DNA of 64,000 bases from an uncultured Acidimicrobiaceae bacterium (GCA_947259275.1 CAMYMH010000018.1:1-64000), one strand, 5' to 3'. Positions 26,048 through 49,245 are shown, counted from the stretch's first letter. A program made the numbers and translations. Notes: generated by a model from the sequence alone, not told the origin.

Positions 26048-26117
26048 TCAGCCATCCTCCTCGTAGGGGTTGGTCATTTCTAGCACCTGTCGACGGCCGA
26101 TGTCGTCAGTTGCGAAC

Positions 26118-28253: not shown

Positions 28254-28302
28254 TCGACTCCTCCCAACTCTGTCATGAGTTAACGTCCGCACGTTACAAC
28301 AA

Positions 28303-29425: not shown

Positions 29426-32410
29426 TTAACGACTCGTAATGTCTTCGAAGGTGGCGCACGGGTCAATCCGATAGGTCTCGCACTGATCCTCGGTAAACCC
29501 CCGAGTGACCCCTGCTCGTGCCGACGCGATCAAATCCTCGGTGAGAAGCGAGACCGTCGCCCAGGTTCCGGTCTGTGTCCCTACAAGTACATGGTTCTCG
29601 TCCCTCCAATGGATGTCGGCCACACCCGGCACAGGGATCGAGTTCAGCTTGTCACCGGTGTCGAGGTCGTAGACATGCACACCGTTCTCATCACCGAGGG
29701 CCAGTCGTCGAAGGTCAGACTCGACCGCTATAGCCTGGACACGACCGAGCTCGATCGGGAAGAACCAGATGTCCCAGGTCGTCATGTCCACCAAACCGAT
29801 CGATTCGACTCTGTAGAACACACTCGTTCCCCAATCGGCTTCGAACCGATCGCCGCCGTCTGGAATGCGGGCCAGCTCTTCGCCCGTGACCAGGTCCTCA
29901 AACAGCACCTGACCTTGTGACGAGCCACCGATCCACTCATCCGAGAATCCGCCCACGAATTCGAATGGGGATGCCGGACTCAGCTCACCCATCGGGGTGC
30001 CATCCTTCGGATCGATCAGTGTCAAGGTGCCGTCTCCAAACCTGACGAGCTGGGAGCCGTCTTGTTTGGGAGCCCAGAAGTACGGAATCGGGAACGCACC
30101 ATCATCACACAACCCGGTTACCGGATCGACATCGCAACCGGCCAGGCGAGCCTGCTCTCCCGTCATCGGGTCATAGGTGAACCAGGCCGAAGGTGCGGAG
30201 GCGCCACCGCTGTAAGACTCAGTGATCAGGAACCGATCGTCGGCAAGCGGGGTTATGGGCTGTTGTCCGGCAACCGGCTGGCCCACCAGCGCCCCCGAGT
30301 TGAGATCGAAGAAGAAGACCTGCGACTCGAAGGTCCCGGGATCGGTCGCGACGAATGCCCCGATCGTCTGACCCGGGATGTTCGAGTTGGCGCTTATGAG
30401 CGCGTAGGTGCCAACCTCGCCAACCGGGTCGAGGCCGACGTTGGGACTGAGATCCCAGACCTTGAACTGCCCGTTCTGGTGGCCGGTGAACAAACGGCGG
30501 CCGTCCGAGGTGATCGCCGCGTTGACGGCAGGGCCGCTTGGCAGGCTGAACACCTGCTGGCCGGTCTCGATGTCCCAAACCGGCGTCTCCGCGCCCTGGG
30601 TCGGTACTGCATAGAGACGATCGGACCCTGAGAAACCGAAGCTCATGGTGTTGTCGGAGGGTATCGCCGGGAGCGGCGTGAACATGTCGATTGGTTTGCC
30701 GGTCGACGTGTCATAGGCGGCCAGGGTGCCGCAGTCCGCCGGTCGGGGGATAGGCGAGAACAGGAGACAGGGGTCGTTTGGAGTGTTGAACGTGATGACG
30801 GTGGAGCCGTCTGGCGACACGTCCCCGAGGCCCTGGACGCCCTCCAAGAATGTGGGCTCCGAGTAGTCCGGCGGTTCATAGATGGCCACGTCTCCCAGAG
30901 GAGAGAAGGCAAAGAGCCGGCCCGTGCTGTCGAACGACGCCTCATAGGCCTCCGGTTGACCAACGCCCCCGATGAGCTCGAAGGTCTCGCCATCGAGCAC
31001 CTCGACCGGCGATTCGCATCCATCGAGCACAACGAACGACGACCCGTCGGGTGACCAACCGGTCGGTGTCACGACATTGCCGCACTCGGACGCAATCGTG
31101 TTCACGATGGAACCATCGGAGGCGTCGATTATCAGGAACCGGCTGAGGGAGCCAAAGAGACCCAAAGAGAGCCGCTCGCCATCGGGACTGACCGTTAGGT
31201 GGAGGAAGAGATAGTCGCCCTCACTGTCGGGGTCGAAGATATTCGCGACCACCCCCTCGTACTCCCACAACTTCTCGAGATCCGACGTCGAATAGGCCTG
31301 CACGACGAGGGCTTGCGGGAACCCCCCGACCGGAAATCCGTTGACAACGAACAGTGTGGAGTCATCCGGCGAGAGGGCGACAAATGTCCCGTCGGTGTAG
31401 CCGGTTTCGACCACGGCTTCCAAGCGGTCTTCCTGCACGGCCTGCCACAACGCGTCGATCACCTCTTGCGGCTGATCCTGCCCCGCAGGCGAGGCATCGA
31501 TTGCCTCCAGGGTGAGGAGGATCGAGAGCTCGGGGTCTTCGTCGAGAAGGTTGATGGCCGAGGCTGCCAGCTCGCGGGCCACCGCCAAGGCGGCGCTGGC
31601 GTCGGCCTGTTGGCGAGCATCGGCTTCGGCGGCGGCGTTCCGCTCCGCCAAGGCAGCATTGTCGTCTGCCTCTACCCGCGCTTCTGCTTCGGCGACGGCG
31701 TTGGCTTCGGCCAGGGCCTGACTGTCGCGGGCGTCGTTTCGTTGCCCGATGGCGAAGACGCCGGCCACTACCGCGGCGGTGGCGAGGACGGCCAGCCCAA
31801 TGCCAGCTGCCCAGGCGGTGCGGACCGTGCGGCGGTGTTGGCGGACCTCCTCCGATTCGAGCTCATCCTTGGGAATCCCCCGAATTGCAGATGCCACATC
31901 AGCGACCGCCGCCAGAAACGCCGGGTTCTTCAGATCGAGGTTCTCGTCACCCTTGGCGAAGCGAAGGTCGACCCAGCGGGGCTCCTCCGAGAACACCCCG
32001 CCGAGGGCAGCCGGGACCGACGAACCCGTTACATCACCGTTCTCCCAGCCGAAGTCGCCGTCGGTCACCACCGGGAGGATTCGATCAGCCGGTTTGTTGG
32101 CTACCCAATGTTCAATCTCTTTGCCCACCCACTCCGACGAAGCAGCATCCGGGGACAACATGAGAACAAACCAGCCCGAATCGTCGAGAGCCTCGGTGAT
32201 CGAAGACCACAGATGCGGGTTGGCCGCCAACGACGACTCGTCCCGGAAGATCCGCACCGCCCGCCGCTTCCACCACGGCTTGGCGAACTTCTGCAACCCC
32301 GCCTGCAACCGGGGCGCCAACAAATCGTCGGCCGCGTGGGAGTAGGAGATGAACCCGTCATAGGTGACCTTCTCCACGTCAGTAGCGCTTGTCCCCTTGG
32401 TTGTTTCCAT
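29426..32410 (-). CDS. TIR-TM-coiled coil-beta-propeller protein, paralog 1
   Basis: TYDGFISYSHAADDLLAPRLQ...SSEWVGKEIEHWV (candidate catalytic Glu); TM WAAGIGLAVLATAAVVAGVFAIG; WD40/YVTN-like repeats; tail CETYRIDPCATFEDITSR. ATG at 32408-32410 preferred. Confidence 0.9.
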   Translation of the reverse strand: METTKGTSATDVEKVTYDGFISYSHAADDLLAPRLQAGLQKFAKPWWKRRAVRIFRDESSLAANPHLWSSITEALDDSGWFVLMLSPDAASSEWVGKEIEHWVANKPADRILPVVTDGDFGWENGDVTGSSVPAALGGVFSEEPRWVDLRFAKGDENLDLKNPAFLAAVADVASAIRGIPKDELESEEVRQHRRTVRTAWAAGIGLAVLATAAVVAGVFAIGQRNDARDSQALAEANAVAEAEARVEADDNAALAERNAAAEADARQQADASAALAVARELAASAINLLDEDPELSILLTLEAIDASPAGQDQPQEVIDALWQAVQEDRLEAVVETGYTDGTFVALSPDDSTLFVVNGFPVGGFPQALVVQAYSTSDLEKLWEYEGVVANIFDPDSEGDYLFLHLTVSPDGERLSLGLFGSLSRFLIIDASDGSIVNTIASECGNVVTPTGWSPDGSSFVVLDGCESPVEVLDGETFELIGGVGQPEAYEASFDSTGRLFAFSPLGDVAIYEPPDYSEPTFLEGVQGLGDVSPDGSTVITFNTPNDPCLLFSPIPRPADCGTLAAYDTSTGKPIDMFTPLPAIPSDNTMSFGFSGSDRLYAVPTQGAETPVWDIETGQQVFSLPSGPAVNAAITSDGRRLFTGHQNGQFKVWDLSPNVGLDPVGEVGTYALISANSNIPGQTIGAFVATDPGTFESQVFFFDLNSGALVGQPVAGQQPITPLADDRFLITESYSGGASAPSAWFTYDPMTGEQARLAGCDVDPVTGLCDDGAFPIPYFWAPKQDGSQLVRFGDGTLTLIDPKDGTPMGELSPASPFEFVGGFSDEWIGGSSQGQVLFEDLVTGEELARIPDGGDRFEADWGTSVFYRVESIGLVDMTTWDIWFFPIELGRVQAIAVESDLRRLALGDENGVHVYDLDTGDKLNSIPVPGVADIHWRDENHVLVGTQTGTWATVSLLTEDLIASARAGVTRGFTEDQCETYRIDPCATFEDITSR

Positions 32411-35340
32411 TAGCGGCTCCTGATCTCTTCGAGGGTTGGGCAGGGGTCGATGCGGTAGGTGTCGCATTCCCCGGTCGTGAAGCCACGAGTCGCGCCTGCC
32501 GCTGCCGAGGCAATGAGGTCCTCTGTCCGAAGTGACACGGTCGCCCAAATGCCGATCTTCCCACCGACCAACACCGTGTGCTCGTCGATCCAGTGGATGT
32601 CCGAAACGCTCGGCATCGGAATCGAAACCAGAGGGTCACCGCTATCGAGGTCAAACACGTGGAGACCGTTCTCATCCCCCAATGCGACGCGACGCAGGTC
32701 GTATTCCACACCTAATCCCCGCACCCGGCCGACATCCAAGGAGTGTTCTCGCGTCTCCCAGGTCGACGTGTCGGTAACGAAGAGCGCCAATCCATTCCAT
32801 ATCACGAGGGTGGATCCGTCCGAGTCGCCCCTGGGAAAGTCGGTTCCTTGCTCGACGCGGGCCAGCTCCTCGCCGGTCGCGCGATCCTCGACAATCAGAT
32901 CCCCTTGGTCCAGGTTCCCAACGACCCACGTGTCCGAGAAGCCATCGATGAAGTTGAACCGGCTCTCCGGGTTGTATTCGCCGACTGTGGCCAGGGTGAC
33001 CGCGTCGATAAGCGTGAACACGCCGTTCTCCCGAGCCATGAGTTCCGACCCATCGATCGAAGTAGCCACCCACAGGTCGGGGGCCAACGGTTCACCGGAA
33101 TCCATGCACAGCCCGTTCGTAAGGTCAACGACGCATCCGGCGACGAACGACTTCTCCCCCGTCTCTGGATCGACAACCGACCACTCGCCTGTCTGATCGT
33201 TCGTGAGGAAACGCCCTTCAGCCAGGGGCGAACCCCAGGGAAAGCCGGCGACCGAGTCGACGAGGGTCCCGGTCACCGTGTCGAAGAAGAAGGTCCTCGA
33301 CTCGCCGGTCTCTAGATCGATGCCCCAGAATGCGCCGAGACTCGACCCGACAACGAAACTGTCGGCGTTGACCCATCCATACGTGCCCAGATCACCGACC
33401 TGGTCGAAGCCGACGGTCGGGCTCAAATCCCACACCCTGACAACCCCACCGGCGTGCCCGGTATAGAGCCAGCGTCCGTCAAAGCTCATCGCCGTATCCC
33501 ACGTCGGTTCACTGCGGACTTCGAAAAGCTGGTCGCCGCTGGCGATGTCCCAAACGACAGTCGCCTCGCCTTGTGTTGGGGAAAGGAACACACCGGTGGG
33601 GCCCGAGAATTTCAGGCCGAGGTCGTTGGGAAACACCGGCAGAGGTGTGAGGTGATCGAGCACAGCTCCGGTCACGGAGTCGTACGCCACCAGGCCGTCC
33701 TCCGGGTTGAACGTGACGACGGTGGATCCATCAGCCGTGATATCTCCATACCCTCGAACGCCGTCGATGGCCTGCGCGGATGAGTAGCCGGGGAGGCCAT
33801 GAACCGTAACTTCGTTCTCGATGCTTGCGAACAGATACAGACGCTCCGATGCGTCAAATCGACTGATGAGACCTCGATGATCCTCGAACTCTGAGAGTGC
33901 GGCAGGCGCGTCGACGAGTGCCACCTGTTCGAAGGTCCGACCGTCGAGCACCTCCGCCCAGGTGCCTGCCGTGGTACCGACGCGTTCGCACAGTCCCAGC
34001 ACAGGGTTCACTACCAGGTGACTGCCGCTTGGTGACCAGCTTGCTCCCATCTGAGATGCGCACTCGGGGTAGTCGATCGTGCGGTCCTCGGTGCCGTCGG
34101 CGGTATCGAGGATGATCACTCGCCCCTCCCGAGTGCCTTCCCCTGTCTCAGACGCCCTCGAGGCTCCCACGGCGATCGTTGTCCCATCTGGGCGGTAGGC
34201 GACGGTCGTAAACCGGTCCGTGTCGGAGCCCTGGTATTCCCAGAGAAGCTCTCCCTCGGGGGCGGAACGCGCTTGCACCGATGCAACTCCGTCATCTGTC
34301 ACAACCAGAGTCGAACCATCGGGTGACACCGCGAGGCTCGTGTTCCCGTCGTGACCCGTGTCGATGACACGCACCAGCCGATCTTGCTGAATGGCCCGCC
34401 AGAGGGCATCGATGAGCTCCGCCGGTTGCTCCTCTCCGACGGGCGTCTCTTCGATCGCCTCGAGCGCGAGCAGAATCGACAGCTCCGGATCCTCATCGAG
34501 CACATTGACCGCTGAGGCGCCGAGTTCCCGAGCCCTCGCCAGAGCGGCGCTGCGGGTGGCTTCTTCGGCGTTGGCTTGGGCCTGCGCCGCGTTCTGTTCG
34601 GCGAGATCGGCGTTGGCGTCGGCCTCGCTGCGGGCCAGCTTCTCGGCGGCCGCGTTATCTCTCGCGTCGTTGCGTTGGCCGATGGCGAAGATCCCGGCTA
34701 CTACCGCGGCAACCGCAAGGACGGTGACAGCTATCCCAGCGCCCCAGGCCGTTCGGACGGTGCGACGGTGTTGGCGGACTTCCTCGGACTCCAGTTCATC
34801 CTTGGGGATCCCTCGAATCGCAGATGCCACATCGGCCACCGCGGCCGAGAAGGTCGGGTTCTTTAGGTCCAGATGCTCCTCACCCCGAGCGAACCGGAGA
34901 TCGACCCACCGGGGCTCCTCACTGAACACACCACTCAACGCTGGTGGCACGGATGAGCCAGCAACATCACCGTTCTCCCACCCAAACTCACCATCGGTAA
35001 CCACAGGGAGGATCCGATCAGCGGGTTTATTGGCTACCCAATGTTCGATCTCTTTGCCCACCCATTCAGAGGAGGCGGCATCTTGGGAAAGCAGGAGCAC
35101 AAACCAACCGGAATCGTTCAACGCCTCCGTTATCGAGGACCACAGATGAGGATTGGCCGCCAACGACGACTCGTCTCGGAAGATGCGGACTGCCCGGCGT
35201 TTCCACCACGGCTTGGCGAACCGCTGCAACCCCGCCTGCAACCGGGGAGCCAGCAAGTCATCGGCTGCATGGCTGTAGGAGATGAACCCGTCATAGGTCG
35301 CCGGAGCTGTATCGAACGTGGTGCGCTCGGCGGTATCCAT
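32410..35340 (-). CDS. TIR-TM-coiled coil-beta-propeller protein, paralog 2
   Basis: Same architecture; tail CDTYRIDPCPTLEEIRSR; stop TAA overlaps paralog 1 ATG (TAATG). Confidence 0.92.
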   Translation of the reverse strand: MDTAERTTFDTAPATYDGFISYSHAADDLLAPRLQAGLQRFAKPWWKRRAVRIFRDESSLAANPHLWSSITEALNDSGWFVLLLSQDAASSEWVGKEIEHWVANKPADRILPVVTDGEFGWENGDVAGSSVPPALSGVFSEEPRWVDLRFARGEEHLDLKNPTFSAAVADVASAIRGIPKDELESEEVRQHRRTVRTAWGAGIAVTVLAVAAVVAGIFAIGQRNDARDNAAAEKLARSEADANADLAEQNAAQAQANAEEATRSAALARARELGASAVNVLDEDPELSILLALEAIEETPVGEEQPAELIDALWRAIQQDRLVRVIDTGHDGNTSLAVSPDGSTLVVTDDGVASVQARSAPEGELLWEYQGSDTDRFTTVAYRPDGTTIAVGASRASETGEGTREGRVIILDTADGTEDRTIDYPECASQMGASWSPSGSHLVVNPVLGLCERVGTTAGTWAEVLDGRTFEQVALVDAPAALSEFEDHRGLISRFDASERLYLFASIENEVTVHGLPGYSSAQAIDGVRGYGDITADGSTVVTFNPEDGLVAYDSVTGAVLDHLTPLPVFPNDLGLKFSGPTGVFLSPTQGEATVVWDIASGDQLFEVRSEPTWDTAMSFDGRWLYTGHAGGVVRVWDLSPTVGFDQVGDLGTYGWVNADSFVVGSSLGAFWGIDLETGESRTFFFDTVTGTLVDSVAGFPWGSPLAEGRFLTNDQTGEWSVVDPETGEKSFVAGCVVDLTNGLCMDSGEPLAPDLWVATSIDGSELMARENGVFTLIDAVTLATVGEYNPESRFNFIDGFSDTWVVGNLDQGDLIVEDRATGEELARVEQGTDFPRGDSDGSTLVIWNGLALFVTDTSTWETREHSLDVGRVRGLGVEYDLRRVALGDENGLHVFDLDSGDPLVSIPMPSVSDIHWIDEHTVLVGGKIGIWATVSLRTEDLIASAAAGATRGFTTGECDTYRIDPCPTLEEIRSR

Positions 35341-38300
35341 CAGTTCTCGTCAGCCTCAGCCGGGCACGGATCAATGCGGTAAACCTCACACTCGTCCGTT
35401 GTCAGGTCTCGTTTCAGGCGACTCATCGCGAGATCGATCAGCTCGTCGATGTCGAGAGTCAGCGTTGTCCACAGGCCTCCGGACGTCGCCACGGCAATGT
35501 GTTGATCGTCGAGCCAGTGCCCATCCGACGCCCCTTCCAGAGGAACCCGGTGAAGCTCGATCCCGGTCGCGAGGTCCCAGACTCTGACAAAACCATCCGT
35601 CCCACTGGTCATGAGCATCGAATCGTCTGGCGAAAACGATAGGCCGCGGATTGTCGCATCACCGGTACCAACCGATCGCGTAACGGTCCAGCTCTCCGTG
35701 TCATAGACAGATACATTTCCAGGCCGGTCCGAGACGGCGAGGGCCGCACCGTCGTGAGTCAGCTCAACCTTGAACCCTGTGAACGAACCGAGGACCTCGT
35801 GCGATTCAATGTCGAGCACCGTCAGCTCTTCGATGTTTTGACTACTCGTGACCGGTGTCCGGAGGTTGGAGACAACCACCCAGTCGCCCCCAAAGGCCTC
35901 GACACCACCGTGCGCTGGATCAAGCTGGTACTCGCTGATCGGATCGAGGGTTTCGGGATCGTACAGAAGCAACTCGCCGAAAGCCGAGGTAACCAGCAAC
36001 CGGTCACCAAGCGGGTTTAGGAAGAAGCGTTCGAGCGCAAACCAATCGCCTTCTCGATCGCTACACGGTCCCACAAATTGGGCAGTCGCAACCAGCATCA
36101 GGTCGGCGAAGTTCGCCCGGCACCCAACGATTTCTTCAACAGAACCGTCAGCCGGGTTCCACGCCACGACTGGTCCCATTTCGAAATCGCCTTCGAACTG
36201 ATTCCCGCTTCGCTCAAGGGTGACAATCCGCCCGTCGTTGAGGACGGCGGCCGGGGAGCCCACCGAGGTCGGCGACGATGCACCGCCCAGGATCCCGGTT
36301 CGTGCGTCGAACGTCCGGAACAACCAACCATTTTCGTCGTCGACCGTGAGAAGCGCACCATGCACCCCGTTGGCGGCCATGGCGTTTGCCTGCGCCCAAG
36401 CTCCGTGCAGAACAGTATTGAACTCACCCACCGATGCCCCGGACAAATCCCATGTACTGATCGCGTTTGATCCGAGGTGATACAGGATCTCCGACTCATC
36501 GTCGTAAGCGATGCCGCCCAGGAACGGGGCCTGGCCGGTCGCCGGCATTGTCTGCACCGGTTCACCGGTCGTGAGGTCCCACATGATGGTCGCATTCCCC
36601 GCGGAACCAGCGATGACCAAGTTGCCATCATCAGAGAACCGGATTGACGTGGGCGCGGCGGGAAGGCCGGTGAGGCGATCCATCAGCTCACCCGTAGCCA
36701 GGTCGTGAATTTGAACGCTCGGTGAGAAACCATGCGACGCAACGAGCGAACCGTCGGGGCTCAGCGCAGGATGAAAATGGTCGGGAAGCTCAGCGAGCAC
36801 CTCGCCGGTCGTCACATCATGGACCAGCACGCCGCCGTTAAAGGGGTTGGTTACCACCCGCTGTGAGTCGTCCGACCAAGAAGTAACCACAGAAATAGAG
36901 GAGAGGGGGAAGCTCGCCGACGGTTCGAACGTGTCACTATCGAGGAGAGCCAATCGCCATCGACCTTCCGGCCCCTCGCAGTTCGCCTCGTCACTGGTGA
37001 CGACCGGCCAGGCAGAACCGTCGGGGGACTGCGGGCCGAGAATGAATCCCGGGCAGGGTGCGAACTCGACTTCCGTTTTCAGCTCACCGCTGAGTGCGTC
37101 AAGGACGACCAAGCGACCCGGCCTGTCATCTGGTTGATCGGGCCGATTCACTGCTGGGAACCCGGGCGACGATGAGTCGACAAGACTGAACGCAAGGGTG
37201 CCGCCGTCCACCGAGAAGAACAACTCAGAGGGGAAATCGACCGTCGCGTCGTCGTTGTAGACCCACACTTCGTCCCAAGTTGATGTGTCGAAGACCCGAA
37301 CCGTCGCCGTTTCCGCAGACAGGACAGCGAATCGGGCGCCATCGGGTGAAAGAGCGCTGTAAGCGACCTGCTCACCACCCGGTATTGGGATCGTGTTGAG
37401 CAGGTTCGTGGAATGAGTGGCTTCCCGGAGAGCAACGAGGGACTCCACTGGAGGATCTTCTTCACCAGCAAGCGAGGCCAAGGCGAGGAGAATTGACAAC
37501 TGGGGGTCGACGTCAAGCGTGTTGATAGCCGCTCCAGCTAACTCACGAGCTTGAGCTAGCTGGGCGTTGCGAGTCGCTTCCTCGGCGTTGGCGTCAGCAT
37601 CCTGGCGGGCGACCGCCTCGGCGTCGGCATTCTCCTGGGCGATCCTGGCGTTCTCTTCTGCAAGAGCGGCGTTTTCGCGCGCATCGTTGCGTTGCCCCAC
37701 CGCGAAGACCGAGGCAACTACCGAGACAATGGCAAGCACTGCGAGTCCGATGCCGGCTGCCCAGGCGGTACGGACGGTGCGGCGATGTTGGCGGACTTCT
37801 TCTGACTCCAATTCATCTTTGGGGATACCGCGAATCGCGGAGGCCACGTCGGCCACGGCCGCTGAAAACGTCGGGTTCTTTAGATCAAGGTTCTCGTCAC
37901 CCTTTGCGAACCGCAGATCGACCCACCGCGGCTCCTCCCTGAACACCCCACGCAAGGCAAGGGGAACACTGGATCCGGCGACATCCCCGTTCTCCCAACC
38001 GAACTCCCCATCTGTAACAACCGGCAGCATCCGATCGGCTGGCTTGTTGGCTACCCAATGTTCAATCTCCTTGCCCACCCACTCCGATCCCGCAGCATCG
38101 GGAGAAAGAAGCAGCACAAACCAGCCCGAATCCTCCAAAGCTTCGGTGATCGAAGACCACAAATGGGGGTTGGCTGCCAACGATGACTCGTCCCGGAAGA
38201 TCCGCACCGCCCGGCGTTTCCACCACGGCTTAGCGAACCGCTGCAACCCCGCCTGCAACCGCGGGGCCAACAAATCGTCGGCTGCATGGCTGTAGGAGAT

Positions 38301-38360
38301 GAACCCGTCATAGGTCACCGGAGAGGCAGCAGCCGGAGCGGTCCGCTCAGCAGCGTCCAC
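35340..38360 (-). CDS. TIR-TM-coiled coil-beta-propeller protein, paralog 3
   Basis: Same architecture; GTG start; tail CEVYRIDPCPAEADEN; stop overlaps paralog 2 ATG (TGATG). Confidence 0.92.
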   Translation of the reverse strand: MDAAERTAPAAASPVTYDGFISYSHAADDLLAPRLQAGLQRFAKPWWKRRAVRIFRDESSLAANPHLWSSITEALEDSGWFVLLLSPDAAGSEWVGKEIEHWVANKPADRMLPVVTDGEFGWENGDVAGSSVPLALRGVFREEPRWVDLRFAKGDENLDLKNPTFSAAVADVASAIRGIPKDELESEEVRQHRRTVRTAWAAGIGLAVLAIVSVVASVFAVGQRNDARENAALAEENARIAQENADAEAVARQDADANAEEATRNAQLAQARELAGAAINTLDVDPQLSILLALASLAGEEDPPVESLVALREATHSTNLLNTIPIPGGEQVAYSALSPDGARFAVLSAETATVRVFDTSTWDEVWVYNDDATVDFPSELFFSVDGGTLAFSLVDSSSPGFPAVNRPDQPDDRPGRLVVLDALSGELKTEVEFAPCPGFILGPQSPDGSAWPVVTSDEANCEGPEGRWRLALLDSDTFEPSASFPLSSISVVTSWSDDSQRVVTNPFNGGVLVHDVTTGEVLAELPDHFHPALSPDGSLVASHGFSPSVQIHDLATGELMDRLTGLPAAPTSIRFSDDGNLVIAGSAGNATIMWDLTTGEPVQTMPATGQAPFLGGIAYDDESEILYHLGSNAISTWDLSGASVGEFNTVLHGAWAQANAMAANGVHGALLTVDDENGWLFRTFDARTGILGGASSPTSVGSPAAVLNDGRIVTLERSGNQFEGDFEMGPVVAWNPADGSVEEIVGCRANFADLMLVATAQFVGPCSDREGDWFALERFFLNPLGDRLLVTSAFGELLLYDPETLDPISEYQLDPAHGGVEAFGGDWVVVSNLRTPVTSSQNIEELTVLDIESHEVLGSFTGFKVELTHDGAALAVSDRPGNVSVYDTESWTVTRSVGTGDATIRGLSFSPDDSMLMTSGTDGFVRVWDLATGIELHRVPLEGASDGHWLDDQHIAVATSGGLWTTLTLDIDELIDLAMSRLKRDLTTDECEVYRIDPCPAEADEN

Positions 38361-41300
38361 TACCGACTCCGGATCTCATCAAGCGTCGGGCACGGATCGA
38401 TGCGGTAGGTCTCGCACTCTTGGCTTGTGAACGACCGGCGCAGTCGATCGCGGGTCTCACTCAGGAACTCCTCGGTCGACAGAGAAATGGTTCCTATGCC
38501 ACCCGAGGTCGTCCCGACCACTATGTTCAGATCGTCCAGCCAGTGAACGTCGGCCACGTTGGGCAGACCCATCTGCTGGACGACGCTTCCCGTTGCGACG
38601 TCAACGACTCGCAGACTTGCAAGGTCGGCGATAGCCAGCTTCGACCCGTCACTGTTGAAGGCAACGCTCAGAACGCGGGTTTCGGTGGTGATCGAGGCGA
38701 CTTCCTCCCAAGTGTCCGTATCGGTCACGACGACCGACAGAAAGTTGCGAACGCTGGCAACACTCCCACGATCCGGCGAGACTTCGATGTCGGACACGAT
38801 TCTGTCGAGCCGGTAGAGGACCTCGCCGGTGCGCAGGTCATAGGCAACGCCGCTGTCATTGAAGCCGCCGAAGATCCAAGACTCTCCGCTCACCGATCTA
38901 CCCCCAAAGCGCTCGGAGGAGCGATATGGGTCCTGGGCGCTTGGCTCCTCGTCCGGACCACTCGACGCCACCAGGTCCCCGGTTTCGGCATCGAAGGCTC
39001 GGAAATGCCCTGTGAATTGGGGCAACGCGCCTTGAAGTTCAAACCCGTAGGCAAGGACCTTGTCGCCATTGGGAGAAATGAGTACGCGGTAGTTCGGGGG
39101 CCCGCTGGCTTCGGCACAAAATCGATTGCCAGTGCTCGGGTCGGTCTCGCGTTCACAGTCAAACAACACGACCGACTCGCCCGTTGACGGATCCCATATG
39201 ACACCAGTCGTTGACAGCCGCCCCTGGGTGGCAGAGTTGCCAACGAGGACAGCGCCGAGGTCGGTCAAGACAAACTTGCCGTTGGGGAGACCGTGCTCCA
39301 CGGCCAAACCCTCCACAGGTTCGCCTACCAGCTCGCCGGTTGAACGATCGACGAACTGAGAGGCAATCGACTCCGAGTTCGGATCGCTGGTCGTAACCAT
39401 GCCCACGAGCTCGGGTCCAACCACGAAGCTGTTGAGTGTCCTGAAATCGTCATCGGCGAATGTGAACCCGCGCAAATCTCCGGAGATGTCCACACCAACC
39501 GGAGCCTCGCTCATGTCCCAGATCTTCACACCCGGCTCGTCACCGGTCGTATAGAGCAGTTGCGTCTCAGGGTTGTAGGAGGAGGAGATGAGGGGGCCTG
39601 TCGGGAGCCGATGGAGCAGCCGGTTGGTCGCCAGGTCGTAGACGAAGCTGTAGCGCGCGTCGGTTCCGACCACGCCGAGCCGCCCGTCTCTCGTGACTGT
39701 GACCGCGGGCATCCTGGGGGCGTCTGTCCCGTTATAGAGAACGTCCATCGTGTCTCCGCTAGCTGCGTCTACGATCCAAGCGCTGAACGCGGTGCCGCCG
39801 GTGGCGGTCGTCGAGTGTCCGAGCAGGTATCTGTCACCGGTCGGGTAGACATCCCCAAACCCCGTCGCCCCAGATCGAGAACGTGGTTCGAATGTCTCAG
39901 CTTCGAACGTGTAAATCACCCCCTGAAAGGAGGTGACATGAAGGGCGCCTGTGTCATCGAAGCGGGGGCGCAGAGCAACAGTGGCTTCCGGCACGTCCAG
40001 CGTCGCGACCCGGGCCCAAGTGGCCGTCTCGAAGACATCAATCCACGTATTTCCACTGCCGCGGTCACACCCACCGCCGCTCGATACGACCAGGAACCTT
40101 CCGTCGGGTGACCATTCCGGATGCCAGATCGTGGAGCATTCGTCGTAGGGGATCGTGTGCAGGGCTTCGCCAGTGTCGGCGTGGAGGATGACGACTCGGG
40201 CGAAGAGATCGTCCGCCTCCTCGGTCTGGAACGGATTGAGGAAGGATGTGCTGTCAACAATCAGCAGCGCCACGCGACCGTCGGGACCTATCGCTGGGAA
40301 GTCAAAGAAATCAACCGTGTCCTCTTCCACATATGTCCAGATCGGTTCACCGTTGGTCGCGTCCATCAGCACCAGTTCCCGCGGCCCGTCGAAATAGGCA
40401 AAGCGGGTGGCGTCTGGTGACAGATCGGAGTGCCAGAAGCCTCCATAATCCCACTCGTCGACCAGACGGTTGGCATCGCCAGCCCGCCATAGGGCATTGA
40501 GCACCTCAAGAGGAGGATCCTCGTCGGTGGGCGAACTATCGATTGAGTGAAGAGCGAGGAGCGTCGCGAGTTCCGGATCCTTGTCGAGCGCTGCCACTGC
40601 GGACGCAGCGAACTCGCGCGCAGTCGCCAGCTGCGCGTTCAGGTCCGCTCGACCAGCCTCATCATTGGCCCGTTCAGCTTCCTGGTTGGCACGTTCGGCT
40701 TCGGTCTTAGCGGTATCGGCGTTCTCCCTAGCGTCGTTGCGCTGGCCGATAGCAAACACTCCGGCGACAATCGCTGCGATCGCCAGGACCGTAACCGCGA
40801 TACCGGCGGCCCAGGCGGTGCGCACCGTGCGCCGGTGTTGGCGCACCTCCTCCGACGCGAGCTCGTCCTTCGGCACTCCCCTAATCGCGGAGGCCACATC
40901 AGCAAGCGCAGAGGAGAACTCCGGATTCTTGAGATCTAGGTTCTCGTCACCCCGGGCAAACCGCAGGTCCACCCAGCGGGGTTCTCCATCAAAAACACCG
41001 TGCAGAGCCGGGGGCACTGATGATCCTGCTACGTCACCATCATTCCAAGTGAATTCCCCATCGGTAACGACGGGCAGGATCCGGCCGGAATCCTTGTTAG
41101 CAACCCAATGCTCGATCTCCTTACCCACCCACTCCGAAGAAGCCGCATCGGGAGACAGGAGCAACACAAACCAACCCGAGTCGTCCAGGGCCTCGGCAAT
41201 CGAACTCCACAAATGCGGGTTGGCCGCCAGCGAGGACTCGTCTCGGAAGATCCGCACCGCTCGCCGTTTCCACCATGGTTTGGCGAACCGCTGCAACCCG

Positions 41301-41410
41301 GCCTGCAATCGGGGAGCCAACAAGTCATCGGCGGCGTGACTGTAGGAAATGAACCCGTCATAGGTCGTCGGAACCTGAAGCTCAACCGTGCCGCGCTCAG
41401 CAATATCCAT
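38360..41410 (-). CDS. TIR-TM-coiled coil-beta-propeller protein, paralog 4
   Basis: Same architecture; tail CETYRIDPCPTLDEIRSR; stop TAG overlaps paralog 3 GTG (TAGTG). ATG at 41410 preferred; in-frame ATG at 41434 also possible. Confidence 0.92.
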   Translation of the reverse strand: MDIAERGTVELQVPTTYDGFISYSHAADDLLAPRLQAGLQRFAKPWWKRRAVRIFRDESSLAANPHLWSSIAEALDDSGWFVLLLSPDAASSEWVGKEIEHWVANKDSGRILPVVTDGEFTWNDGDVAGSSVPPALHGVFDGEPRWVDLRFARGDENLDLKNPEFSSALADVASAIRGVPKDELASEEVRQHRRTVRTAWAAGIAVTVLAIAAIVAGVFAIGQRNDARENADTAKTEAERANQEAERANDEAGRADLNAQLATAREFAASAVAALDKDPELATLLALHSIDSSPTDEDPPLEVLNALWRAGDANRLVDEWDYGGFWHSDLSPDATRFAYFDGPRELVLMDATNGEPIWTYVEEDTVDFFDFPAIGPDGRVALLIVDSTSFLNPFQTEEADDLFARVVILHADTGEALHTIPYDECSTIWHPEWSPDGRFLVVSSGGGCDRGSGNTWIDVFETATWARVATLDVPEATVALRPRFDDTGALHVTSFQGVIYTFEAETFEPRSRSGATGFGDVYPTGDRYLLGHSTTATGGTAFSAWIVDAASGDTMDVLYNGTDAPRMPAVTVTRDGRLGVVGTDARYSFVYDLATNRLLHRLPTGPLISSSYNPETQLLYTTGDEPGVKIWDMSEAPVGVDISGDLRGFTFADDDFRTLNSFVVGPELVGMVTTSDPNSESIASQFVDRSTGELVGEPVEGLAVEHGLPNGKFVLTDLGAVLVGNSATQGRLSTTGVIWDPSTGESVVLFDCERETDPSTGNRFCAEASGPPNYRVLISPNGDKVLAYGFELQGALPQFTGHFRAFDAETGDLVASSGPDEEPSAQDPYRSSERFGGRSVSGESWIFGGFNDSGVAYDLRTGEVLYRLDRIVSDIEVSPDRGSVASVRNFLSVVVTDTDTWEEVASITTETRVLSVAFNSDGSKLAIADLASLRVVDVATGSVVQQMGLPNVADVHWLDDLNIVVGTTSGGIGTISLSTEEFLSETRDRLRRSFTSQECETYRIDPCPTLDEIRSR

Positions 41411-41553
41411 CAGCCACTCGTGGCCAGTACCCAATTAAGGGCAAGGCCGGAGCCTTGGATAACCGATGAACTGGCAACGGACTGCGGACATTCCCCATAC
41501 ATAATCGCTTCCTCGTCCTTACGCGAACCTACTGGAAACTTGGCATGTCGGCC

Positions 41554-44481
41554 TCACACTTCGCTTACGGCCTGTAAATCGCCGCCAGCGCGGCGGCGCA
41601 GCACATAGAGCGGCATATCCCCGAATTGCTTGGCGGTTGGCATATGTCCGACGTACTGGCACTCGAAACTGTCGATTTCGGAGAGCATCGCCAAGGCCGC
41701 GAAGGCATGGGTGGTGTAGATCTCGCCCTCGGGGGTACGGGGCTCAATTCGGGCCGCCTCGGTCAATCCGACACCGAAGAACAGGTCGCTCTCCGCAATC
41801 GGGTCCCATCCCTCAAACACCGGGGCGGCGTGGGCGGCCACCCGCAACCCGCGTAGCTGCGAAAGCCCAGCCTTCTCTGTGTGGATAGCCTGGCCGGCGG
41901 CGACCAGGTCGAGGGCGCACTCGGCGGCGGCGGCCACATCGTCGAACACCAGGCTGATGCCATCCCCCCAGGTCCGGCCAGACAGCAGCTGGTCACGGAA
42001 CGGCTGGATGTGGTCGGCCAGCTGCTTCATCACGACTTCTTGGAACGCCACGAGTTGGGCGTCGGAGAGCTTGGAAAAGCCGGCGAAGTCGGCGAAGACA
42101 ATGGCCCGCACCTGCCGTTGATGGGCTGCCGGTGGGGTGGGGCCTCCCGCGGACTCGCCGGCCGGTACTGAGATGATGGAGGAGGGTGCTCCGGTGTGAG
42201 ACCAATGGGCCACGTCAACGGCGGTGCCGGCGGTGGCAGCCGGTTCGTTTCCGTCCCAGACGGCTACCTGATGAGCATCGGTCTGCAGAAACTGCGCCCG
42301 CAGGAGCGCATCACCCATGGCCACCCGGGCGCAGTAGTCGAACAGCACCGGGTCGTCGAGGTATTCACCCGTCGTCGCCAGCTCGACCGACTCGGCCTGC
42401 GCCAGGCACTCCTCAAAACGCTCGACCCAGTCACCGCCCGCTGTCACCACCGAGGTCCGAACAAACTCCTCCTGGGGAAACGGCAGCACCACGTTGAGCT
42501 CGGCGCCCCGTGCCAGTAAAGCCTCCGCCGCCAGGATGTCGGCCCCGGCCGCCAATGACCCGAACCCGATTCCGACTCCCAACTCTTCGAAGCTGGCGTC
42601 CAGTTCGGACCGCACTCGCTCCTCCTCCTCAGCCGGGAAGCGGCCCTTCTGTCCCTCGGGAAGGATGCGGTGGCCGCAGAAGTGGACAACGGTTGGGTTG
42701 CGAATGGGAGCGAGTATCTCTGTGTCGATCCCCTTCAGCTCACACACCAGCGTGAGCTGCTTGAGAGTGGTGGCCCGTTGGGAAAGGAGGCCTTCTCCCG
42801 CCTCGGCGGCGGTGACGAGGGCCCCCCGGGCCCGGTCCATGTCGTCCAGAATCAACGCGGCTTCGGCTTCGGTCGAGGCGTCCCAGTAGCCATGGCCCTG
42901 CAGGCTGTCGCTGGCGAGGGCCTGGTCGGCCAACTTGGCGGCCCGCTCGGTATCGCCGGCCAGCAACCACATGGTGGCGGCGTTGGCGGCGTGATAGGCC
43001 GAATCGGTGTTAAGGAAAGCCGTCTCGTACCCCCGGGCCGACCGTTCCGCCCACTCCCGGCGACGATCGGGCTGGGCCAACGCCTCGTCCTTGTCCAGAC
43101 GCGCCAAGAGCACGGTGAGGTCCTCGGCCAGCTGGGGAGCCAGCGTCGCGGGGTCGAGTGTGTCGAGGCCGAACTGCTCATACCGCCGCCGGGCCTGAGA
43201 CGTAGCACCGGCCCGAGCCAGCGCCAGAACCGCTAGATAGCGGGTGACCGGGGCGGCTCGCCCGCGTTCAATCTGGCCGGCGGCGAAGTCATAGGCCTGC
43301 AGGTAGTGGCCCCGGCGGATGAGATCACGCAGATCGTCCGGCAGGTCGGCTTCGGTCTCCGAGTCGCCCTCGTCGAGGCCCACCCGGGCCCGGAAGGTGT
43401 TGGTGTCGTAGACGCTGACCGTTGTCGGGGTCAGCGCCCGCACGGTGGCGCTGCGTACCGTTCCAAGAATGGAGGCGAGCTCACCGAAGTACCGACCCGG
43501 GCCCAACTCGGCGACCCGCACTTGCTCGCCGGCGGGACCGTTCTTCAAGACTTCGACCCGCCCGTCTTCTATCCAGTAGATGGCCGAAGCCCGGGTTCCT
43601 TGCTCCACGATGATGTCACCCGGCCCAAAGTTGAGAATCTGCACCTCGTCGTCGAGCTCGGTGGGGGCCGGCTCATACTCGCTCAGCGCCGGATCGTGCA
43701 GGAGGATGCGCTCTTCCAGGTCAATCAGCTCGGGCCACGGCTCGATGCCGAGCTCGTCCCCCAGCCGGGCTCGCAGATCTTTGAACGCGGCCAACGCTTC
43801 GGCCTGGCGACCGGAGCGATAGAGGGCGAGCATGAGGAGCTCCCATAAACGCTCCCGGAATGGGAAGGACTCGACCAGGCCGAACAATTCACCGGCCACC
43901 TGGTCGTGGCCGCCGTCGGCCAGGGTGGCGTCCATCAACGACTCCACGGCTTGTAGGCGTTCTTCTTCGAGCTGGCGGGCTGCTTGCTCGGCGAACTCGA
44001 ACTCCCGCAGATCAGAAAGAGCCGGACCGCGCCACTGGGCCAGGGCCTGGCGATAGCTCTCGCAGGCCTGGCTGGCGTGGCCGAGCGTGTGGAGCTGACG
44101 AGCCCTCCGCGACTGGACCCGGAACCGGTTCAGATCGGTGTTGGCGGCTGGAATCTCGAGCCGGTAGCCGCCCGACTCGGTGACGATGAGATCTTCTCCC
44201 ACGGCGTCCCGCAGACGGTTGACGGCCGTGTGCAGAGCGGCCTCGGGCCGAGTTAGCTCCTGGTCCCCCCAGAGGGCGTCCACGATCGCGTCGATCGGAA
44301 CCATGTTCGGAGCCCGGATCGCCAGCAGAGCCAGGAGGCCACGGGGTTTGGCGCCCGGCAACGCGAGTACCTCTCCCGATGTGTCCACCAGCTCGAGCGA
44401 CCCGAGCATTCGCAGGTCCACAACGGTCACCACCCTATCGAAACCCGGTTGGGTAGAGCTGGACGGTGCGTCTGCCACCAT
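41554..44481 (-). CDS. Multidomain regulator: SARP-type wHTH + BTAD + cNMP-binding + TPR-like + putative SLOG/Rossmann + class III nucleotide cyclase
   Basis: LRMLGSLELVD...KPRGLLALLAIRA (wHTH); BTAD helical region; IIVEQGTRASAIYWIEDGRVEVLKNG...GPGRYFGELASILGTVRSATVRA (cNMP); VHFCGHRILP...GFGSLAAGADILAAEALLARGAELNVVLPF (SLOG-like); AIVFADFAGFSKLSD...TWGDGISLVFDD...GVGLTEAARIEP (cyclase). Confidence 0.85.
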   Translation of the reverse strand: MVADAPSSSTQPGFDRVVTVVDLRMLGSLELVDTSGEVLALPGAKPRGLLALLAIRAPNMVPIDAIVDALWGDQELTRPEAALHTAVNRLRDAVGEDLIVTESGGYRLEIPAANTDLNRFRVQSRRARQLHTLGHASQACESYRQALAQWRGPALSDLREFEFAEQAARQLEEERLQAVESLMDATLADGGHDQVAGELFGLVESFPFRERLWELLMLALYRSGRQAEALAAFKDLRARLGDELGIEPWPELIDLEERILLHDPALSEYEPAPTELDDEVQILNFGPGDIIVEQGTRASAIYWIEDGRVEVLKNGPAGEQVRVAELGPGRYFGELASILGTVRSATVRALTPTTVSVYDTNTFRARVGLDEGDSETEADLPDDLRDLIRRGHYLQAYDFAAGQIERGRAAPVTRYLAVLALARAGATSQARRRYEQFGLDTLDPATLAPQLAEDLTVLLARLDKDEALAQPDRRREWAERSARGYETAFLNTDSAYHAANAATMWLLAGDTERAAKLADQALASDSLQGHGYWDASTEAEAALILDDMDRARGALVTAAEAGEGLLSQRATTLKQLTLVCELKGIDTEILAPIRNPTVVHFCGHRILPEGQKGRFPAEEEERVRSELDASFEELGVGIGFGSLAAGADILAAEALLARGAELNVVLPFPQEEFVRTSVVTAGGDWVERFEECLAQAESVELATTGEYLDDPVLFDYCARVAMGDALLRAQFLQTDAHQVAVWDGNEPAATAGTAVDVAHWSHTGAPSSIISVPAGESAGGPTPPAAHQRQVRAIVFADFAGFSKLSDAQLVAFQEVVMKQLADHIQPFRDQLLSGRTWGDGISLVFDDVAAAAECALDLVAAGQAIHTEKAGLSQLRGLRVAAHAAPVFEGWDPIAESDLFFGVGLTEAARIEPRTPEGEIYTTHAFAALAMLSEIDSFECQYVGHMPTAKQFGDMPLYVLRRRAGGDLQAVSEV

Positions 44482-44528: not shown

Positions 44529-45530
44529 TTAGCCGGGGACCTGCAACTCCTTTCGCACCGAGGATTTGAGCAGGTCAGGGGCGAATGAGCCATCCAGGGC
44601 ATTGTGCTGGAGCTGTCGTAGTTCGTCGACGCTCAACCTGTGCACGTCATGGGCCAGCCAAAGCTCGCTGGTGAGATCGGTGCTGAAGTAGGCGGGGTCG
44701 TCGGTGTTGATGGTCACGGTGACGCCGGCGTTGATCAGCCGACGGATCGGGTGAGCTTCGACGCTCGGTGCCACCCTTAGCAGCACGTTCGACGTCATCG
44801 ACACCTCGAGCGGGATGCCGTGCTCGGCCAAATAGTCGACCAGGGCGGGGTCTTCAATCGAGCGGACGCCATGGCCGATGCGATCGGCTCCCAAGGCGCG
44901 GATGGCTCCCCACACACTCTCGGCCCCAACCGTTTCTCCGGCATGGGGAACCGAGCCGAGACCGGCCGCCTTCGCCTTCTCGAACGAGGCCGCGAACCAT
45001 TCGGCGGGATAACCGACTTCGGGTCCCCCCAAACCCAGCGCCACAACACCATCGGGCGCAGACGGTCCCGTGATCAGGTCGGCAGTGAAGCCGAGGTCGG
45101 GATCTTCGAGCTCGCGGGGGATGTCGCAGATCCAGGACAGCTCGACGCCGTGATCCAGGCGAGCCCGCCGGCGCCCTTCGTTGAGCCCGTCCACATACTC
45201 GGCCATCTCCAGGCCGCGCCGGTGGTGGTTGAAGGGGGTGGTGGTGACCTCGACGTACCGCACGTTCTGCGCAGCCAGTTCCTCAGCAAGGGTGGTGGTT
45301 GCCGTCACGAAATCCTCGCCATCGTTGAGCACCTCGAGGCCCTGGATGAAGAGCCGCAAGAAGTCGTCGAAGCTCTCGAAGCGGTATTGCGTCGTTAGCT
45401 CCTCGGCCGAGCCCACTCCGAGATCGACGTCGTGACGTTTGGCCAAGTCCAACATGGTGGCCGGTCGCAGCGAGCCCTCGAGGTGCAGGTGCAGCTCTAC
45501 CTTCGGCAGTGCGGCGATTAGGTCCGGCAT
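44529..45530 (-). CDS. add: Adenosine deaminase
   Basis: LPKVELHLHLEGSLRP; SVPHAGETVG; DRIGHGVRSIEDP; TINTDDPAYF. Confidence 0.93.
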   Translation of the reverse strand: MPDLIAALPKVELHLHLEGSLRPATMLDLAKRHDVDLGVGSAEELTTQYRFESFDDFLRLFIQGLEVLNDGEDFVTATTTLAEELAAQNVRYVEVTTTPFNHHRRGLEMAEYVDGLNEGRRRARLDHGVELSWICDIPRELEDPDLGFTADLITGPSAPDGVVALGLGGPEVGYPAEWFAASFEKAKAAGLGSVPHAGETVGAESVWGAIRALGADRIGHGVRSIEDPALVDYLAEHGIPLEVSMTSNVLLRVAPSVEAHPIRRLINAGVTVTINTDDPAYFSTDLTSELWLAHDVHRLSVDELRQLQHNALDGSFAPDLLKSSVRKELQVPG

Positions 45531-46707: not shown

Positions 46708-47940
46708 CTAGTTGATGGCGGGGACGGCGGCACGCCTCGAAATGAGTAGGTAGGTCTCCATGTCTCCCTTGCCCTTGACCGACACCAGGCCCCGGGGCTC
46801 ACACAGGTACTGGTCCCGGATCAGCTCATAGGTGGCGGCACTCAATTGAACCGATCCCGCCACCCCTCCCGACTCCATACGACTGGCGGTATTGACGGCG
46901 TCACCCCACAGGTCGTAGGAGAACTTGTGAGTTCCGATGATCCCGGCGACGACCGGCCCGGAGTTGATGCCGATCCGGAGCGCGATCTTGCGGCCATCGA
47001 AATCGTTGGCGGCAACATGGTCACGAATTCGCAATGCCAGTTCGGCCACCGCGTAGGCGTGATCCGGTCGAGCCACCGGCACTCCCGACGCCACCATGTA
47101 CTCGTCACCGACCGTCTTGATCTTCTCCAAGCCCAGCTCATCGACAAAGGAGTCGAAGGTCGAGAACACGTCGTTGAGCAGACCGACCAGCTCGGAAGGA
47201 GTCATCCCGGCCGACATCGGGGTGAAGTCGACCACGTCGGCAAACAACACCGAAGCCGAGTCAAAGTGATCGGCGATCATCGTGTGGTCCGCCTTGAGGC
47301 GGCCGGCGATTTCGTCGGGGAGAATGTTGTGCAGCAGGTCGTCCGATTGCCTCTGGAACCGGTCCCGCTGCCGGACGAAGTACGCCATAGTGGCAAAGGC
47401 AACCGCAGTCACACCGATGAAATTGAAGGCAAGTTCCCCGGAAGTTCCCTCGACGATGTAGTGAGGCTCTATCCACTCAGGGAGCGCAACCGCAGCCACG
47501 ACTATGACTACGAAGCCGACGAACCACCAGAATCCCGCTCTGAGGCCGAGTGCAAAGAGGGCGCCGAGAACATTCATGAGCCCCCAGAGGATCGCACCCG
47601 AGGATGGCTGGATCCCTCCCAGGAGGATCGTTTCCACCAGGATTACCAACATTACGAAAAGAAGAAGGACGTTGAATATCCCTGCGAACCAATGCGGCTT
47701 GAGGCGCAGCGCAATCAGTGACCCCGAGATGTGCAGAGCCGTCCAGAGGGACGTCGCCGCCAACCATGCTCGACCAGATCCAAGACCGTCGAGCCCTCCC
47801 ACAACGTTGAGTGCTACAAAGAGGATCGACACACCCACAATGATCCGCCGCCTGCCCCGCTGGTCATCAGACTCCCCTGGGAACGAGCCGATCGAGAGGA
47901 AGCGCTCCCACATCCGACGTGCCCGGGCCATGGCAGTCAT
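46708..47940 (-). CDS. Membrane class III adenylate cyclase, copy 1
   Basis: N-terminal TM helices; SVLFADVVDFTPMSAGM; KIKTVGDEYM; SYDLWGDAVNTASRMES. Confidence 0.93.
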   Translation of the reverse strand: MTAMARARRMWERFLSIGSFPGESDDQRGRRRIIVGVSILFVALNVVGGLDGLGSGRAWLAATSLWTALHISGSLIALRLKPHWFAGIFNVLLLFVMLVILVETILLGGIQPSSGAILWGLMNVLGALFALGLRAGFWWFVGFVVIVVAAVALPEWIEPHYIVEGTSGELAFNFIGVTAVAFATMAYFVRQRDRFQRQSDDLLHNILPDEIAGRLKADHTMIADHFDSASVLFADVVDFTPMSAGMTPSELVGLLNDVFSTFDSFVDELGLEKIKTVGDEYMVASGVPVARPDHAYAVAELALRIRDHVAANDFDGRKIALRIGINSGPVVAGIIGTHKFSYDLWGDAVNTASRMESGGVAGSVQLSAATYELIRDQYLCEPRGLVSVKGKGDMETYLLISRRAAVPAIN

Positions 47941-48012
47941 ATGGCGACCATAGTGGACGGATGCCCACGCCCGCCGATTCCTCTTCGATGACGGTTGTCG
48001 GCGGCACCACAC

Positions 48013-49245
48013 TCAGCTGGTTGCAGGGGCGTTGGCACGTCTCGATACGAGCATATAGGTCTTCATGTCCCCTTTACCCCTCACCGGGACCACGCCGCGG
48101 GGCTCGCAGACGAACCGGTCCTGGATCAGTTCGTGTGTCGCCGCGCTCACCTGGACCGATCCCGCTAGGCCCGCCGACTCCATTCGACTGGCGGTATTGA
48201 CGGCGTCACCCCACAGGTCGTAAGAGAACTTGCTGGTCCCGATGATCCCGGCGACCACCGGCCCGGAGTTGATGCCAATCCGGAGCGCAATCTTGCGGCC
48301 ATCGAAATCGTTGGCGGCAACATGGTCACGAATTCGCAATGCTAGTTCGGCCACCGCGTAGGCGTGATCCGGTCGAGCCACCGGCACTCCCGACGCCACC
48401 ATGTACTCGTCACCCACCGTCTTGATCTTCTCCAAGCCCAACTCATCGACAAAGGAGTCGAAGGTCGAGAACACGTCGTTGAGCAGACCGACCAGCTCGG
48501 AAGGAGTCATCCCAGCCGACATCGGGGTGAAGTCGACCACGTCGGCAAACAACACCGAAGCCGAGTCAAAGTGATCGGCGATCATCTCCTCCTCCTCCTT
48601 GAGCCGGTTGGCAATCTCATCGGGGAGGATGTTGTGCAGCAAGTCGTCCGACTCTTTCTGGAGTCGGTTCCGTTGTCGAACGAAGTACGCCATGGTGGCA
48701 AAGGCAAAGGCAGTCACCGCGGCGATGTTGAAGGCAAACTCGCCCGAAGTCCCTTCGACGATGTACCGGGGCTCGATCCAGTTGGGGAGCACGGTGGCGG
48801 CCGCGACGGCGATCAAGAAGCCGATGAACCAGGCAAATGCTGCCCTGAGGCTGAGGGCAACTAGCGCACCCAGCACTGCCAGAAGCCCGAACAGGATCTC
48901 GCCGGAGGATGGTTGGAGCCCACCCAGGACGACGGTGGTCGCCAGCGTCTCCGCCAGCACGAAGAGGAAGGCAACATGCAGGATCGCGGTGAACCATCGG
49001 GGTCTGAGCCGGAGCACGATGAGCGCCCCAACGAGGTATGCGACCGTCCCGAAGGAAATCGCCGACATCCACGGCCGACCCGACCCGAGCTCGGAGAACC
49101 CGCCCACCACGTTGGGTGGTACAGAGAGCACAAAGACGCCCACGATGATGCGCCTGCTCCCCCGCCGAGAACGAGACTCCTCCGGGTACGAACCGAGGGA
49201 TAGGAAGTACTCCCATATCCGGCGTACCCGGGACGTGGCACCCAT
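48013..49245 (-). CDS. Membrane class III adenylate cyclase, copy 2
   Basis: Same architecture as copy 1 at a constant 1305-bp offset. Confidence 0.93.
   Translation of the reverse strand: MGATSRVRRIWEYFLSLGSYPEESRSRRGSRRIIVGVFVLSVPPNVVGGFSELGSGRPWMSAISFGTVAYLVGALIVLRLRPRWFTAILHVAFLFVLAETLATTVVLGGLQPSSGEILFGLLAVLGALVALSLRAAFAWFIGFLIAVAAATVLPNWIEPRYIVEGTSGEFAFNIAAVTAFAFATMAYFVRQRNRLQKESDDLLHNILPDEIANRLKEEEEMIADHFDSASVLFADVVDFTPMSAGMTPSELVGLLNDVFSTFDSFVDELGLEKIKTVGDEYMVASGVPVARPDHAYAVAELALRIRDHVAANDFDGRKIALRIGINSGPVVAGIIGTSKFSYDLWGDAVNTASRMESAGLAGSVQVSAATHELIQDRFVCEPRGVVPVRGKGDMKTYMLVSRRANAPATS

Follow-up and report, generated by a model that had tools for sequence, protein, structure and literature searches.

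How might a row of TIR genes be coupled to a neighboring gene whose product joins a DNA-binding activator module to nucleotide-binding domains and a nucleotide cyclase? This question is raised by a locus of an uncultured Acidimicrobiaceae bacterium (GCA_947259275.1, contig CAMYMH010000018.1), which we analyzed within a stretch of 64,000 nucleotides, hereafter the window.

Domain architecture of the regulator and its TIR neighbors

The regulator is encoded on the minus strand by a single uninterrupted ORF with an ATG start, and the locus has the following layout:

41554–44481, minus: regulator gene, wHTH-BTAD-cNMP-binding-TPR-S-SLOG-class III cyclase as predicted, 975 aa (ORF and translation, Pfam, structure models)
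44158–44346, minus: winged-helix Trans_reg_C domain, residues 46–108 (Pfam)
43702–44139, minus: BTAD, the SARP activator domain, residues 115–260 (Pfam, E 5e-43)
43387–43632, minus: cNMP_binding domain, residues 284–365, with the phosphate cassette FGELASILGTVRSA (Pfam, E 1e-18)
42727–43332, minus: TPR-S helical sensor region, residues 384–585 (Pfam PF20308; family profile against 5ulm)
42157–42714, minus: predicted SLOG Rossmann domain, residues 590–775 (AF2, Foldseek, conservation)
41587–42129, minus: predicted class III nucleotide cyclase, residues 785–965 (profile, fold, residues)
41435–41553, minus: gap of 119 bp from the regulator stop to the first TIR gene (ORF coordinates)
38360–41434, minus: TIR gene 1, TIR_2 with a hydrophobic segment near aa 204 and a weak WD40-propeller signal (Pfam, hydropathy)
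35340–38360, minus: TIR gene 2, TIR-TM-WD40 (Pfam, hydropathy)
32410–35340, minus: TIR gene 3, TIR-TM-WD40 (Pfam, hydropathy)
29426–32548, minus: TIR gene 4, TIR-TM-propeller, the true start probably lying within the ORF (Pfam, hydropathy)

The initial annotation had described one 975-aa ORF with wHTH and BTAD, a cNMP-binding domain, a helical region, a Rossmann segment and a class III cyclase, and the ORF, Pfam and profile/structure comparisons agree with that layout. At the N-terminus, Pfam recovers the wHTH plus BTAD combination of the SARPs: the Trans_reg_C match is marginal (E 1e-5; 26.0 bits vs a cut-off of 26.2) and exceeds the cut-off in the relatives L037, L038 and L039, and the AfsR model matches residues 22–273 with 162 bits. 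The phosphate cassette of the cNMP domain contains G333, E334 and R343. The Rossmann segment and the cyclase both escape Pfam, which also finds no SIR2 and no kinase domain in the regulator. What the annotation called a helical repeat region is indeed helical, and its identity had been overlooked: PF20308 matches residues 403–504 (E 1e-9; 39.3 bits vs a cut-off of 27.6), and we therefore assign the region to TPR-S (“Tetratricopeptide Repeats-Sensor”).

As the same annotation held, the regulator stands upstream of a TIR array; four genes of the TIR-TM-WD40 type, spanning 29426–41434 on the regulator's strand and abutting or overlapping one another, begin 119 bp downstream of it, and their TIR domains match Pfam ThsB_TIR. 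No sigma-70-type promoter or terminator was found in the gap 41435–41553. Farther out, an adenosine deaminase-family gene (44529–45530, minus) precedes the regulator by 47 bp on their common strand; it was rejected as a conserved partner, there being no homologue near the relatives. A DctP/DctM/DctQ TRAP transporter (24794–28805, minus) lies downstream of the TIR array.

Two candidate sensors: a divergent SLOG domain and TPR-S

Residues 384–975 were modeled by AlphaFold from an alignment of 71 with a pLDDT of 93.9 and a pTM of 0.92. A fold search with this whole core returned cyclases only among the matches listed, and the Rossmann segment (residues 590–775) was therefore modeled separately (AF2, 61 sequences), yielding a pLDDT of 95.6 and a pTM of 0.92. 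In a Foldseek comparison of this model against the PDB, DprA, the DprA-like ShosA, LOG/‘lysine decarboxylase-like’ proteins, the Moco carrier protein and TRPM2 with ADP-ribose rank high, at E-values from 7e-5 to 5e-3 and with modest TM-scores of 0.32–0.54 to the query; DprA is at the top (E 7e-5, probability 1.0), and the match to TRPM2 presumably falls on its SLOG-like N-terminal part. Among viral models the best match has TM-scores of 0.69/0.74 and the second, a DprA-like phage protein, 0.64/0.76, while more of these matches carry a YspA/cpYpsA SLOG annotation. The initial annotation had guessed at a SLOG domain and proposed structure prediction as a check; the modeled fold is that of a SLOG domain.

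The loops of the family agree with this assignment: a G-H pair follows strand 1 (603–604), a G.LA.GAD motif follows strand 2 (641–648; GSLAAGAD in the regulator itself), and a WDG motif (742–744) precedes an AGT (751–753) of the [AG]GT type near the C-terminal end. G603 is present in 72 of 72 relatives, H604 in 69 and T753 in 60, and G641, L643 and A644 are conserved in 100% and G646–D648 in 97–99% of the same set. No Pfam SLOG model matches the segment, and the DprA model does so weakly in two of 61 members (best E 0.047); likewise, a sequence search of the PDB detects no SLOG domain, the profile finds none of the ThsA chains in the PDB at E≤10, and its hhalign comparisons with DprA and TIR profiles score no better than reversed decoys. 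Since sequence models miss the segment in this way, we regard the family as a divergent one. YAcAr (PF10686), taken as a reference SLOG family, was found in one genome only of the order to which the bacterium belongs. Shorter ORFs at four loci (L032, L033, L034 and L036) have the same SLOG-type motifs with no TPR-S or cyclase match, and that of L036 weakly matches YAcAr/cpYpsA SLOG.

The TPR-S region is at least as likely a sensor as the SLOG domain. Its family profile matches animal ASK1/MAP3K5 (5ulm, E 0.0011), and PF13281, the ASK1 TRAF-binding region, is over its cut-off in the relatives L090, L095, L098 and L116.

A class III cyclase with an altered base pocket

The C-terminal family profile matches solved class III cyclases with E-values down to 1.8e-17 (3mr7), and the structure model matches the same fold at E 2e-8. 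The regulator has the two metal-binding aspartates (D798 and D840) and the transition-state arginine (R911) of this class, and these occur jointly in 60 of the 72 relatives. Its base pocket lacks the canonical purine-selecting lysine and transition-state asparagine: R836 stands where lysine is usual and T907 where asparagine is usual, and in the family the former position is mostly asparagine, inside an N[TS]WGD motif, and the latter threonine or serine. This non-canonical pocket leaves the activity and the product uncertain. Pyrimidine selection by Pycsar cyclases depends on residues close to the second metal aspartate, and these differ by clade (PMC11224242); by analogy, a non-purine product of the predicted cyclase is therefore possible.

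Twelve relatives that form one clade (support 0.98; L090, L093, L095, L098, L099, L100, L102, L109, L112, L113, L114 and L116) have a degraded, probably inactive cyclase with no metal aspartate. Most of them still have a TIR neighbor, and a cyclase output is therefore not universal in the family.

Linkage to TIR genes in other genomes

A single genome scan yielded 214 encoded relatives of the TPR-S plus SLOG unit, the best 80 of which were analyzed with their flanks, many of these loci lying on short MAG contigs. Nearly all of the 80 are TPR-S–SLOG–cyclase proteins of ~500–660 aa, from Alpha-, Beta- and Gammaproteobacteria, Verrucomicrobiota, Actinobacteria and others; no relatives were found in phage records. 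TIR genes were collected with an iterated profile that grew from 39 to 60 matches, a growth that raised the suspicion of drift and led us to check the added sequences individually; all proved TIR-like except that of L111, which was dropped. The initial annotation had made its reading depend on linkage to TIR-propeller genes in other genomes, and such linkage is present: a TIR gene lies within 10 kb at 49 of the best 80 loci (L111 removed), and in an alphaproteobacterial MAG (L076) the linked gene is of the TIR-WD40 type. Of all the neighbors of TPR-S–SLOG–cyclase genes, TIR is the commonest family; among the 54 loci having at least 4 kb of flank on both sides, 35 have a TIR gene within 3 kb, and the density of TIR genes falls from 221/Mb in the first kb to 71–74/Mb at 1–3 kb and <10/Mb past 4 kb. 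The other 31 of the 80 loci, several on short contigs, show no TIR gene in the available stretch.

A hydrophobic segment, mostly near aa 160–215, was detected by hydropathy in 46 of 53 neighboring TIR proteins. It usually follows the TIR domain, and many of the proteins then continue into TPR, WD40, CHASE2 or LprI modules. This arrangement, whose topology rests on hydropathy, suggests a receptor role at the membrane for the TIR proteins, with the TPR-S–SLOG–cyclase protein as their soluble transducer. A glutamate motif of the S.WV..E type is matched by 40 of the 53 TIRs, the simple motif being absent from the other 13.

In about 12 proteobacterial loci (among them L049, L057, L082, L090, L093, L099, L100, L102, L105, L109 and L116), a small gene of about 135–245 aa sits between TIR and transducer; its products share a C-terminal DP.I.N.G-like motif, and that of L090 weakly matches, at its C-terminus, PF20301 pNTSase1 (‘Predicted novel nucleotide synthetase’). 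A search for the PF20301 family was positive in none of six genomes and likewise in none of the controls, and this negative therefore carries no weight. On a Caballeronia plasmid (L138; NZ_CP049320.1, 20529–33061), TPR-S-SLOG-cyclase, TIR, WD40 and DUF4231 genes lie within 13 kb. Matches to both the TIR_2 and the TPR-S families were also obtained in the alphaproteobacterium Caulobacter vibrioides, used as a control genome.

The SARP–cNMP fusion as an Acidimicrobiia-type clade

The fusion of the SARP and cNMP modules to this core forms a single clade (support 1.0), seen only in Acidimicrobiia-type genomes, and each of the six fused relatives retains the cNMP phosphate cassette. Within the order, the fused regulator occurs in the genomes G000, G012, G007, G096, G008 and G001, and the TIR subfamily of the window (≥74% identical) in G000, G012, G007, G096 and G011; both are present in four genomes, the regulator only in two, the TIR subfamily only in one and neither in 130 (Fisher p 5e-6). 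A TIR gene directly follows the regulator in G012 and lies 455 bp upstream of it in G007. The fused relative L039 of G001, on a 1.7-Mb chromosome, has no TIR gene within 10 kb. The genomes G016 and G017, which belong to the same genus as the window, have unfused relatives, that of G017 (L073) with a TIR gene 1 kb downstream. The fused regulator of G096 (L025; contig C14, 2976–5897) is broken by in-frame stops or a frame change, reflecting either a pseudogene or an assembly error.

A candidate signaling route and its alternatives

Taken as a whole, the locus is in our view best explained, tentatively and at somewhat less than an even chance, by a regulator that transduces, in the cytoplasm, the signal of membrane-bound TIR proteins. 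Judged from the single hydrophobic stretch that follows the TIR domain, these proteins would span the membrane, their TIR domain facing the cytoplasm and their WD40 propeller facing outward. On stimulation, TIR domains with the conserved glutamate motif would, as expected from TIR biochemistry, make an NAD+-derived nucleotide; the family annotation of TPR-S, the SLOG fold and the TIR linkage point to these two regions as its putative sensors, which would switch the cyclase on. With D798, D840 and R911, the cyclase is predicted to make a 3',5'-cyclic nucleotide. In the Acidimicrobiia fusion clade, this product, or cAMP from other cyclases, might bind the fused cNMP domain, which may act in cis or in trans to alter DNA binding by the wHTH-BTAD module; the transcriptional target would probably be the TIR operon just downstream. 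The ligand, the cyclase product and the DNA target are thus what we infer around observed domains, folds, linkage and residue conservation, and the closed signaling loop that the initial annotation envisaged is plausible. Its fullest form would be a two-messenger relay with two protein types from receptor to promoter: four paralogous transmembrane TIR receptors with different WD40 ectodomains emit an NAD+-derived signal to TPR-S/SLOG, and a resulting cyclic mononucleotide is read in the same protein and passed to DNA. We consider this relay unlikely, with an appreciable minority chance.

An enzymatic SLOG domain, which would take off a base or break down the TIR product, serving as a damper or off-switch and leaving TPR-S as the sole sensor, would fit the strongly conserved polar positions H604, D648, E653, R688 and D743, which would suit an active site, and the LOG-type enzymes of the same fold. 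However, the LOG motif PGGxGTxxE is here AGTxxD, with a variable last position (D756 in 54 of 72), and DprA and TRPM2, both among the top structural matches, function by binding and not by cleavage, so that we hold this role to be distinctly unlikely. The flow of signal could also run in the direction seen in Pycsar, the cyclase responding first and its cyclic nucleotide driving the TIR effectors. A class III cyclase adjoins TIR genes here as it does there, and PADLOC, which gives single-domain matches only on the locus proteins, relates the cNMP domain of the regulator to PycTIR (E 2e-8) and PycC (E 1e-5) and the cyclase of L105 to PycC (E 1e-6). Yet scans of the TIR partners turned up no cNMP-binding domain in any of them; such a domain is found instead in the cyclase protein, and there in one clade only. 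This direction is quite improbable.

Two further readings were considered. A tandem pair of multi-TM class III cyclases, both with the canonical Lys/Asp/Asn base pocket, lies 2.2 kb upstream (46708–49245, minus); their cAMP could tune the regulator, which would then activate the TIR operon as any SARP does, its TPR-S-SLOG-cyclase tail being a passive scaffold. The existence of a degraded-cyclase clade would fit this. But these membrane cyclases do not recur close to the fused relatives, apart from one weak match to a cyclase domain at the border of L028, and TPR-S, SLOG and the catalytic residues show strong conservation across phyla, which makes this account improbable. Just as improbable is a mere sharing of stress or defense islands, in which TIR and TPR-S-SLOG would have no direct biochemical link. 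Orientation to the TIR gene does vary among loci, and some loci have no TIR gene; against it, TIR genes peak in the first kb and reach background by 4 kb, many are on the same strand with one conserved small gene intervening, and in the window's genome the sole TPR-S match is the regulator, adjoining four of the five TIR_2 genes.

Relationship to known systems and implications

TPR-S sensor systems were reportedly described by Burroughs and Aravind in the Journal of Bacteriology in 2020. We take PF20301 and PF20308 to come from that work, and the near-consecutive accessions suggest one common study. The core TIR plus TPR-S pairing was probably already predicted there, and what looks like the new part is the SARP–cNMP fusion with the TIR–WD40 array. 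The locus resembles those systems in a TPR-S region over the cut-off, a TIR gene next door and, among its relatives in proteobacteria, an additional small gene, but differs in its N-terminal SARP wHTH-BTAD plus cNMP fusion, in its four-gene TIR-TM-WD40 array and in that no small third gene was seen between TIR and regulator at the window locus. With Thoeris (ThsB TIR and the SIR2-SLOG ThsA) it shares the pairing of a TIR enzyme, here matching ThsB_TIR, with a SLOG protein, whereas the regulator has no SIR2 effector of the ThsA kind and is predicted to act through a cyclase and, at this locus, transcription. AfsR/SARP regulators likewise have wHTH and BTAD, but the regulator is without their NB-ARC/STAND ATPase, and its sensor half is instead cNMP-TPR-S-SLOG-cyclase. 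As in Pycsar (PycC with PycTIR/PycTM; PMC11224242), a class III cyclase with an altered base pocket, a cNMP-binding domain and TIR meet at one locus; here, in contrast, it is the cyclase protein and not a TIR or TM effector that carries the cNMP domain, the TIRs are predicted to be membrane-anchored, and TPR-S and SLOG are added as candidate sensors. Finally, the TPR region is, by its profile matches, homologous to the TRAF-binding region (PF13281) of animal ASK1/MAP3K5, while the regulator is bacterial and its predicted output is a cyclase or transcription factor rather than a Ser/Thr kinase.

This homology makes the locus relevant to the bacterial ancestry of a stress pathway found in eukaryotes. 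Most known bacterial TIR systems lead to cell death or NAD+ depletion; a TIR partner resembling a membrane receptor, together with a cytoplasmic partner whose output would be a cyclase and, within this clade, a transcription factor as well, would represent TIR signaling for gene regulation. The locus offers a compact and testable set of steps: binding of a TIR product by SLOG or TPR-S, the nucleotide made by the cyclase, and its reading by the same polypeptide.
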